This document shows positions 22,643 through 45,532 of a stretch of DNA of 64,000 nt, in pieces; position 1 is the first letter of the stretch; each line of letters begins with the position of its first letter. The translations under genes and the position numbers were made by a program. The stretch lies in NCBI RefSeq assembly GCF_019443985.1, contig NZ_CP049303.1:1488001-1552000 (forward strand), in the 5' to 3' direction. The notes under the pieces were generated by a model, which made no database searches, had not been told where the DNA came from, and saw nothing but the letters and a program-made list of their open reading frames with translations. Source of the stretch: Liquorilactobacillus hordei DSM 19519 (GTDB taxonomy: Bacteria; Bacillota; Bacilli; Lactobacillales; Lactobacillaceae).

Positions 22643-22820
22643 CAAAAAATCCCTGCTGATCAGAGACCAACAGGGTTCGATTGACTTTCATAATCAAATA
22701 AGCCCTATCTTCTTTATCCAGACTTTACTGTCGGTATTGGATTTACACCAAATCAACTGCACGCATGCAGGTCGCGGACTATCACCGCCGGTCGGGAGTT
22801 TCACCCTGCCCCTGAAGATA
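22643..22820 (-). ncRNA. FMN riboswitch (RFN element) controlling ribU
   Basis: On the minus strand the aptamer (about 22820-22706) begins TATCTTCAGGGGCAGGGTG, includes CCGACCGGCGGTGATAGTCC and closes with GGATAAAGAAGATA, the conserved FMN element. The expression platform is an intrinsic terminator: CCCTG (22671-22675 side) pairs with CAGGG (22651-22655 side) and six Ts follow (complement of 22644-22649). FMN binding is expected to favour the terminator and switch riboflavin uptake off. Confidence 0.97.
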
Positions 22821-22884
22821 AACTATATTATTTTTTAGTACTCTTTGAGTCTATCATTATTCTAGTAATAATGCAACTAGTTAT

Positions 22885-42056: not shown

Positions 42057-44133
<2,077 letters not shown>

Positions 44134-44153
44134 TGTAAATCCTCCTTATCTTT

Positions 44154-44196
44154 GAAAAAGAAAAAGGGCACGAATCTTTTATAAAGATTCGCGCCC
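44154..44196 (-). terminator. intrinsic terminator in the cysteine operon leader
   Basis: Minus strand 14-bp stem: 44183-44196 (GGGCGCGAATCTTT) with 44166-44179 (AAAGATTCGTGCCC), three-base loop, then TTTTTCTTTTTC. It ends about 10 bases before the AAGGAGG site of cysK. Position after the operon's own promoter makes it an attenuator, though it could also catch read-through from rpoD. Confidence 0.92.
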
Positions 44197-44234
44197 TAGC
44201 CTGGAAAGTTCTTCAAATGGAATTCTTGCTTAAC

Positions 44235-44342
44235 TTACTTACAAAAAAGATTCCAACCCAAAGTAACCGTTTCATCCACACTAACACGCGGAATGAGACA
44301 GCAACATGCGTTATTTACTTTTTTAAAGTTAAGTACAACCAT
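44235..44342 (-). CDS. candidate Cys-rich leader peptide of the cysteine operon (35 codons)
   Basis: Opens with ATG at 44342 behind AGAGG at eight bases and stops with TAA at 44235-44237. Codons 13-15 are TGT TGC TGT, three cysteines in a row (44298-44306), and a fourth Cys is codon 34. Cys is otherwise rare in the proteins of this window, and the gene lies upstream of genes for cysteine synthesis. The stop codon is placed so that a terminating ribosome covers the antiterminator arm. Too short for homology; translation is inferred from the ribosome site and layout. Confidence 0.8.
   Translation of the reverse strand: MVVLNFKKVNNACCCLIPRVSVDETVTLGWNLFCK
44245..44259 (-). promoter_or_regulatory. 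antiterminator arm (decoy copy of terminator 5' arm)
   Basis: Minus strand GGGTTGGAATCTTTT imitates the terminator 5' arm GGGCGCGAATCTTTA and can pair with the terminator 3' arm AAAAGATTCGTGCCC (44166-44180): 13 of 15 positions, including nine uninterrupted pairs at the loop side. It overlaps codons 28-33 of the leader peptide. GGAAT in it can instead pair with ATTCC at 44290-44294. Confidence 0.8.
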
Positions 44343-44371
44343 TTGTTAAACCTCTTTTCTTAATAATTTGA

Positions 44372-44400
44372 ATAGTAAACTATTTTTTTATAAAAAGCAA
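44372..44400 (-). promoter_or_regulatory. promoter of the cysteine operon
   Basis: Minus strand TTGCTT (complement of 44395-44400), 17-base spacer, TACTAT (complement of 44372-44377). The transcript would start about 25 bases before the leader peptide ATG and about 230 bases before cysK. Confidence 0.55.
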
Positions 44401-44407
44401 GCTAAAT

Positions 44408-45532
44408 TTATTCTAAAAAGTCCTTTAGTTGTTTTGAACGGGATGGGTGCCGTAATTTACGCAATGCTTTTGCTTCAATTTGGCGAATACGCTCACGAGT
44501 CACACCAAAGACTTTCCCCACTTCTTCAAGAGTACGAGTGCGACCATCATCAAGGCCAAATCGAAGACGTAAAACATTTTCTTCACGGTCCGTCAAAGTA
44601 TCAAGGACACTTTCCAATTGTTCCTTCAATAATTCGTAAGCAGCATGATCAGCTGGACTTGTAGCATCACGATCCTCAATAAAGTCACCTAAATGTGAAT
44701 CATCCTCTTCACCAATTGGCGTCTCCAAAGATACAGGTTCTTGAGCGATTTTTAAAATCTCACGAACTTTATCTGTTGGCATATCCATTTCCGCACCAAT
44801 TTCTTCTGGGACAGGTTCACGCCCAAGATCTTGTAACATCTGTCTTTGAATTCTGATTAATTTATTAATTGTTTCAACCATGTGAACAGGAATACGAATT
44901 GTACGAGCTTGATCAGCAATTGCACGTGTAATTGCTTGTCTAATCCACCATGTAGCATATGTTGAAAATTTAAACCCTTTACGATAATCGAACTTCTCAA
45001 CAGCCTTCATTAATCCCATATTACCTTCTTGAATAAGATCAAGGAAAGACATTCCACGACCCACATAACGTTTAGCAATTGAAACAACTAAACGCAGATT
45101 AGCCTCAGCTAAACGCTGTTTTGATTCTTCATTACCTTCTTCAATCTTCAACGCCAAAGCAACTTCTTCATCCGCAGTTAACAAGTTTACTCGTCCAATT
45201 TCCTTGAGATACATCCGAACTGGATCATTAATTTTAACTCCTGCAGGAGCTGATACATTCTTATCTTTTGATGCTTTTTCAGCAACATCTGAAGCTGCTT
45301 TTAGGCTATGTTCACTTGGTTCACCTTTTTCATCAACAACTGAAATTCCAGAATCTTCAAGTTTTTGAATAAGTTCATCCATCTGACCTGAATCTAGACT
45401 AAAAGGTGTAACTATTTTTTCACTCAAGTCATCATAGTTAATTTCTTTTTGCGCTTTATATTCTTTAATTAACTCATTCAAGGCTTTGCTGTATGCTGCA
45501 CTTTCAGTTCCGTTATTCATATTTTCTGCCAT
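44408..45532 (-). CDS. rpoD: RNA polymerase primary sigma factor RpoD (SigA)
   Basis: 374 aa, the short Gram-positive form. Region 1.1 remnant (1-70), region 1.2 ([15 protein letters not shown]), region 2 ([48 protein letters not shown]), region 3, and region 4 ([20 protein letters not shown]). AAGGAGG precedes the ATG. Directly downstream of dnaG (11 bases), the macromolecular synthesis operon. Confidence 0.98.

Follow-up and report, generated by a model that had tools for sequence, protein, structure and literature searches.

Amino-acid sensing by leader RNAs in Lactobacillales is mostly credited to T-boxes. One cysteine-responsive operon of the order is cysK2-ctl1-cysE2 of L. paracasei FAM18149, which was upregulated without cysteine and showed high read coverage of its 5'-UTR (PMC6004538). 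The passages of that paper on this operon report a terminator motif in the 5'-UTR, AAGGGCGCGAAA-N16-TTTCGCGCCCTT, and no T-box, and the authors inferred premature termination by a mechanism "yet to be discovered" (PMC6004538). In Actinobacteria, cysteine leader peptides have been described that resemble the case reported here, because cys operons or cbs are preceded by a short ORF containing Cys codons; they differ in that their Cys codons lie near the stop, no conserved terminator hairpin accompanies them and Rho is suggested by the authors (PMC1262725).

We analyzed a cysteine locus of Liquorilactobacillus hordei DSM 19519 within a 64,000-nucleotide stretch of NZ_CP049303.1 (positions 1,488,001 to 1,552,000), the whole of which is hereafter the window. 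A leader ORF with a codon run for the amino acid of the pathway was found there, and a terminator lies between this leader and the first gene. The locus departs from the Actinobacterial type, as 54-72 nt separate the end of the Cys run from the stop codon in the 18 leaders compared, and a terminator is present. Judged from sequence and folding models, we hold it highly probable that the best explanation is a ribosome-mediated transcription attenuator reading the Cys-tRNA supply upstream of cysK-mccB. Leader and terminator would probably turn cysteine synthesis on only under cysteine shortage.

Leader and terminator upstream of cysK in Liquorilactobacillus

All features of the locus are on the minus strand. 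The first regulated gene is cysK/mccA-like (cysteine synthase / cystathionine beta-synthase family; 43216..44133, start at 44133), and its end is overlapped by an mccB-like gene (cystathionine gamma-synthase/lyase family; 42057..43223), presumed to form one operon with it; both calls follow best NCBIfam matches that score under the curated cut-offs. On the other side of the leader from cysK-mccB lies rpoD (44408-45532). The leader peptide ORF (44235..44342) has 35 codons, MVVLNFKKVNNACCCLIPRVSVDETVTLGWNLFCK*, with a Shine-Dalgarno-like AGAGG (44351..44355) 8 nt 5' of its ATG, and codons 13-15 (TGT TGC TGT, 44298..44306) encode the Cys-Cys-Cys run that is the predicted stall site. The intrinsic terminator and its T-tract span 44156..44197, with a 15-pair stem (44197-44183 with 44179-44165). 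Direct reading confirmed these parts of the original prediction, namely the frame, its ribosome site, the Cys codons and a strong terminator before cysK.

The terminator hairpin is by itself unremarkable, because one terminator-like site was found in 801 bases and shuffled sequence yields a mean of 0.6. The fold of the 236-nt leader is well below its shuffles (z = -5.9). The promoter that had been proposed at 44372..44400 (TTGCTT-17-TACTAT) held up in part: TTGCTT recurs in relatives, but the -35 and -10 hexamers match the consensus at 3 and 4 positions of 12 (7/12 in all), and the element has no entry in a consensus promoter scan. This weak candidate is the weakest part of the observed leader. 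The reported absence of a T-box motif agrees with an Rfam scan of the window, in which no family reached its gathering score over the leader; the best sub-threshold match within 44000-44460 (25.7 bits, where the gathering score is 47) covers the terminator hairpin. The sole Rfam hit within the window is an FMN riboswitch at 22703-22823 (100 bits).

cysK was present in all 14 Liquorilactobacillus genomes drawn, and in each of them a Cys-run short ORF and then a terminator lie upstream of it; the run is CCC in 12 genomes and CCSC in two. With four paralogous leaders before a MetA-like gene, described below, they make up the set of 18 leaders compared here (CCC in 16, CCSC in 2). Six terminator pairs were changed on both sides among relatives. 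Short ORFs with at least three Cys in six codons and a Shine-Dalgarno-like site were rare elsewhere: 3/210 tiles of 600 nt from the window (both strands, leader region excluded), 1/228 other tiles from loci L099-L127, and 0/29 on the antisense strand of 29 cysK upstream regions. We take the leader observation to be real because it is conserved in 14/14 genomes of the genus, and with frame, Cys run and terminator all kept in relatives, the core of the original prediction, a cysteine-codon leader-peptide attenuator before a cysteine operon, stands as the likely reading.

Two loci of the genus are unusual. In G011 (L035 / L005) the gap from leader to cysK is about 280 nt, against about 100 in the window, and the insert, perhaps a small repeat between terminator and gene, resembles stretches in L049 and L057. 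In G012 (L047 / L009) the leader is intact and the cysK match spans residues 68-304 only, possibly a frameshift or an assembly error. A further pairing was seen in the ribosome-free fold of the window, where 44354-44318 (the ribosome site and the ORF start) pairs with 44249-44205 around and after the ORF stop; a similar pairing with changed letters was seen by eye in G008 and G009. In the folding model, this pairing of the ORF start with the stop region could provide a further state, one in which translation of the leader is poor.

Candidate antiterminator and ribosome states

Each of the 18 leaders was scanned for the site that pairs best with the terminator 5' arm. In 15 of them this site starts between -1 and +8 nt relative to the end of the Cys run, and in the other three the next-best separate partner starts at +2. 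This stretch (hereafter, segment 1; AUUUCGCG-like, with Ile-Ser/Pro-Arg codons) pairs with CGCGAAU of the terminator. In the window it is AUUCCGCGUG (44285..44294) and either pairs with the terminator 5' arm or lies in a hairpin that sequesters it (P2, 44272..44296; 44296-44291 with 44277-44272 and 44290-44288 with 44281-44279). Counted from the first Cys nucleotide, the distance to segment 1 is 12 nt in 16 leaders and 15 nt in the pair with CCSC. A distance of 12-15 nt is about the reach of a ribosome beyond its A site.

In an alignment of the 18 leaders (A3), 86.4% of the cells of segment 1 and the 5' arm are paired, against at most 62.8% when slid. The four paralogues have the terminator arm GCACGAA and segment 1 UUCGUGC; in all of them a C-G pair became U-A, with Arg-19 of the peptide changed to Cys, and in G008 a U-A pair became C-G. 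These double changes represent about two events, and pair 88:222 is broken in 7/18 leaders and pair 94:216 in 11/18. In shuffle control (a), the pairing had a moderate excess on three measures (13-21 of 500 shuffles reach the observed value) and no excess on the other two. P2, right after the Cys codons, has 78.2% of cells paired against at most 54.9% slid, and its covariation is no higher than that of its shuffles; five leaders of the window's subclade fall outside the aligned P2 register, and in the window itself P2 is shifted.

With a ribosome on the Cys run, segment 1 and the 5' arm are predicted to form the base of a long antiterminator hairpin (P3; 44190..44290 in the window, base 44290-44286 with 44194-44190). 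When the leaders were folded from 12 nt past the first Cys nucleotide (15 in CCSC leaders) to the end of the 5' arm, such a hairpin with this base was obtained in 18/18, branched near its top in G003, at energies 2.3 to 5.4 standard deviations under shuffles (z -2.3 to -5.4). Once the 3' arm was added, the P3 base was converted to the terminator and much of the upper stem remained in most leaders. RNAalifold on the stalled segments retained five basal pairs only, because the upper part of P3 is unalignable.

Ribosome states were then modeled on the transcript up to the 5' arm. With the ribosome three codons before the Arg/Leu codon, that is, on the first Cys codon (the second in CCSC leaders), the antiterminator probability was 0.70-0.99 in all 18 leaders and that of P2 was 0.09 or lower. 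Without a ribosome the antiterminator was at or below 0.26 in 12/18 and at least 0.5 in 6/18, and P2 formed in 12/18. A ribosome on the third Cys codon left the antiterminator at 0.42 or lower, and one parked on the stop codon left it at 0.68 or higher in 9/18, the window among them. In a codon-by-codon walk the first Cys codon ranked first (within 0.02) in 14/18 leaders; positions 5' of the Cys run often scored equally high, and the probability collapsed two to four codons past the first Cys codon in most leaders. The Cys run is thus approximately the last site in the first half of the leader that permits the antiterminator.

With the complete terminator at equilibrium, the terminator won in 17/18 leaders even with a stalled ribosome, so the switch would have to be kinetic and set during RNA synthesis. 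The same computation on the E. coli trp control gave 0.26-0.49 for the antiterminator with a stalled ribosome and 0.96 for the terminator at equilibrium. As this control behaves alike, the equilibrium result marks a limit of the computation and does not refute the model.

The most durable alternative keeps the attenuator and changes its antiterminator. In the original prediction, a decoy of the terminator 5' arm (44245..44259) pairs with the 3' arm and becomes masked when a ribosome is at the stop. The complementarity of 44245-44259 to 44166-44180 was reproduced at 13/15 positions in the window, the decoy is the best partner of the 3' arm in four leaders (G000, G005, G006 and G002; five if a homologous stretch at +36 in G008 is included), and only 15/500 shuffles reach its covariation score. 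However, 59.7% of decoy / 3' arm cells are paired against 57.4% when slid by one column, and upstream of cysK the relatives keep Cys run, frame and terminator in 14/14 but not the decoy pairing, whose match to the 3' arm persists in close relatives only. Masking at the stop is not general either: the distance from stop to terminator varies from 30 to 72 nt, and half of the leaders keep the antiterminator with the ribosome there, as described above. When the window is folded up to the 5' arm with a stalled ribosome, an antiterminator is predicted, but the upper stem of P3 takes up most of the decoy. The decoy antiterminator is therefore probably wrong on the sequence comparison, and we consider it unlikely as the general antiterminator, though it might be a local addition in the window's subclade. 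Sequence and models make it likelier that the antiterminator is formed by the codons right after the Cys run and the terminator 5' arm. The folds and the alignment point to a mutually exclusive antiterminator of this kind, using a terminator arm, in Liquorilactobacillus, and more weakly elsewhere.

In the attenuator with segment 1, a ribosome supplied with ample Cys-tRNA would pass the Cys codons and depart, after which P2 would re-form, the terminator 5' arm would be free and transcription would stop. When Cys-tRNA is scarce, the ribosome would halt when the first Cys codon occupies its A site, and its leading edge, about 12 nt downstream, would open the foot of P2 and leave segment 1 just free. 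Segment 1 and the remaining leader could then zip with the region before the terminator into P3, based on segment 1 and the 5' arm, and RNA polymerase would read on into cysK-mccB before the terminator displaced P3, a step that, in the computation, would be under kinetic and not thermodynamic control. The paralogous leaders of MetA-like genes and the leaders of other Lactobacillales may work by this logic too, using different sequences.

Distribution in Lactobacillales and paralogous leaders

A CysK search of 158 genomes of the order gave 35 strong matches, the window's own included, and 34 Lactobacillales cysK upstream regions outside the genus (29 loci and five more) were assembled. By the same leader definition as in the tile scan (short ORF, at least three Cys in six codons, Shine-Dalgarno-like site), 31 of the 34 carry a Cys-run leader (26/29 and 5/5). 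These span six family labels (f1, f2, f3, f7, f8 and f9), and a terminator hairpin lies behind the leader in 31/31 (the weakest, in L160, at -12.5 kcal/mol). The three leaderless loci (L100, L104 and L107) all have the genus label g54. The range is far wider than lactobacilli of this type. Among other Bacilli, a leader was found at 1/63 cysK loci (1/29 and 0/34), and this one (L129) also has a terminator. A strong terminator (-15 kcal/mol or lower in the last 200 nt) is present at 24/25 leader loci from the set of 29 and at 3/62 leaderless controls. Plasmid cysK loci with leaders occur in L. paracasei, L. casei, L. rhamnosus, L. fermentum and E. faecalis, and one Priestia plasmid cysK locus had no leader.

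Structure was profiled in 29 leaders outside the genus (25 from the set of 29 loci and four from plasmids). The best partner of the 5' arm lies -4 to +32 nt from the Cys run in 21/29 and beats shuffled leaders at 5% in only 7/29. In the ribosome model, the stalled state exceeded the free state by at least 0.2 in 11/29, and the difference was in the wrong direction (-0.1 or lower) in 3/29. Outside Liquorilactobacillus, leader and terminator are well supported, and the antiterminator evidence is weaker. In Enterococcus faecalis the leader (L096, 974-1111) is annotated as the hypothetical protein WP_002355203.1. On plasmid pLBCZ-1 of L. casei ATCC 393 (L093), segment 1 is CGCTTTTTT in place of CGCGTTTTT, a natural variant.

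We somewhat favor a broader reading, in which cysK is controlled by default throughout Lactobacillales by a single cysteine-leader attenuation system, probably ancestral in the order. Drift would have made peptide and RNA sequences almost unrecognizable but left the plan intact (Cys run early in the leader, antiterminator strand immediately beyond the stalled ribosome, terminator), and the system would have spread to a MetA-like gene, possibly a serine acetyltransferase, and be plasmid-borne with cysK2-ctl1-cysE2.

A profile of nine genus leaders matched, among 251 genomes of the family, ten congeners and seven weak others (E 0.001-0.008); the five of these seven that were read (L023-L026 and L029) are unlike leaders; the other two are L027 and L028. 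The profile is insensitive, because the congener G004, which has a leader, was missed. DNA patterns matched 0/395 genomes of the order, a draw in which the sole congener was the window's own genome, and a terminator-motif pattern matched 0/121 genomes and misses congeners too. These null counts are no evidence of absence. A search of genome contigs for related loci confirmed 8 of 31 matched stretches, all from Liquorilactobacillus or Lactobacillus sp. UCMA15818. In the literature searched, which included few subscription papers, no cysteine leader peptide of Lactobacillales was found.

Within the genus, a paralogous leader precedes a MetA-family gene in 4/14 genomes (G001, G003, G012 and G013), with the peptide MAFNAKTVQNCCCRISCTSIWNTSILEYGCFCVGG in G013. 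The metA-named gene of L. paracasei encodes a serine acetyltransferase (PMC6004538), and by analogy the MetA-like target may be an enzyme that makes a CysK substrate. Three other genomes (G004, G007 and G010) have a different leader before the MetA-like gene, ending in CCC-stop, and in the remaining seven no Cys leader was seen at this position. A DNA pattern for the CCC-stop form matched 3/397 genomes, all congeners. In G010, G007 and G004 (L063, L064 and L065, respectively), GAUUUCUAUACU is immediately 3' of the CCC-stop and forms 11-13 bp with the Shine-Dalgarno region preceding another small ORF, which contains GGVRACC or GGVRDWCCC and is followed by the MetA-like gene. From its sequence, this arrangement looks like translational attenuation in cascade. 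The upstream regions of a second MetA-family gene (L066-L079) are T-box-like by eye, with GGGTGGTACCACG and variants. The two MetA-family genes are seemingly under different RNA controls, because the upstream region of the second reads like a T-box.

Remaining alternatives and comparison with known systems

The inverted repeat of the terminator might instead be a palindromic operator in DNA for a transcription factor. Liu et al. 2012, as quoted in PMC6004538, put forward AAAGGGCGCGAA-N(11-18)-TTCGCGCCTTTT as a possible regulatory motif of lactobacilli, and the repeat is kept in the genus and similar in Lacticaseibacillus. We consider this reading very unlikely: a T-tract follows the repeat, the sequence varies between families and yet stays a terminator hairpin, and the Cys-codon leader at 14/14 and 31/34 loci would be left unexplained, as would premature termination. 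That the small ORF encodes a functional cysteine-rich peptide, with the terminator merely separating it from cysK, appears extremely improbable. The peptide is partly conserved inside the genus, but between genera the peptides look unrelated apart from the Cys run, alignment past the run needs a one-nucleotide gap in G004 and G007, and the change of Arg-19 to Cys in the paralogues accompanies that of the terminator arm. T-boxes are the usual switch of his genes in Lactobacillales (PMC9413887), and L. paracasei has a transporter operon behind a Cys T-box (PMC6004538). Control by a tRNA-sensing T-box (RF00230) or by a metabolite riboswitch is nevertheless scarcely credible here, since Rfam scans gave no hit at gathering score over the window leader or over the leaders of 20 related loci (the two hits in that scan, in L052 and L124, are both away from leaders) and a conserved Cys-run ORF belongs to neither class.

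The mechanism of the ribosome-mediated attenuator is itself classical; what the sequences suggest is that cysteine attenuators in Lactobacillales are a large new family. If so, a large and overlooked group of ribosome-mediated leaders would be added (14/14 genomes of the genus and 31/34 other loci), and the motif once proposed as a regulatory palindrome would become a terminator. Certain very small ORFs that are unannotated or labeled "hypothetical" (WP_002355203.1 of Enterococcus faecalis, for example) would be leaders, and the drift of sequence with a kept plan would make this a good system for studying attenuator evolution.

The attenuator would also be a possible answer to the question left open for cysK2-ctl1-cysE2 of L. 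paracasei (PMC6004538). Plasmid copies of this operon resemble the window in having a leader peptide (MSQSMFNAINCCCRTTRFWRCSAC*), P2, segment 1 and a terminator (GGGCGCGAA). In the copies of L. paracasei, L. casei and L. rhamnosus, a terminator of this kind is preceded by MSQSMFNAINCCCRTTRFWRCSAC* or a variant close to it, and in that of L. paracasei CGCGUUUUU, which follows the Cys run, is able to pair with AAGGGCGCG. In this comparison, expression comes from strain FAM18149 and leader anatomy from the plasmid copies; the leader sequence is unlike that of the window, and the passages of PMC6004538 on the operon describe a terminator and no leader peptide.

Two further predicted systems are related in part. 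uORFC-8-2 before cysS in Rhodobacterales is likewise a predicted attenuator with tandem Cys codons and an intrinsic terminator; it differs in controlling cysteinyl-tRNA synthetase, in belonging to alphaproteobacteria, in having two Cys codons and in its structure (PMC8632094). Classical attenuation is also predicted for histidine leaders of some Firmicutes, which differ in sensing histidine, and the authors concerned report T-boxes on the his genes of Lactobacillales (PMC2965389, PMC9413887). E. coli trpL shares tandem codons for the pathway amino acid in a leader peptide, alternative hairpins and an intrinsic terminator, and it behaved similarly in the same ribosome-state computation. The Liquorilactobacillus leader would differ from trpL in sensing Cys and not Trp, in having its antiterminator strand 12 nt (15 in two leaders) past the first Cys nucleotide, about where a stalled ribosome ends, and in an antiterminator that sits at the foot of a hairpin about 110-140 nt long.
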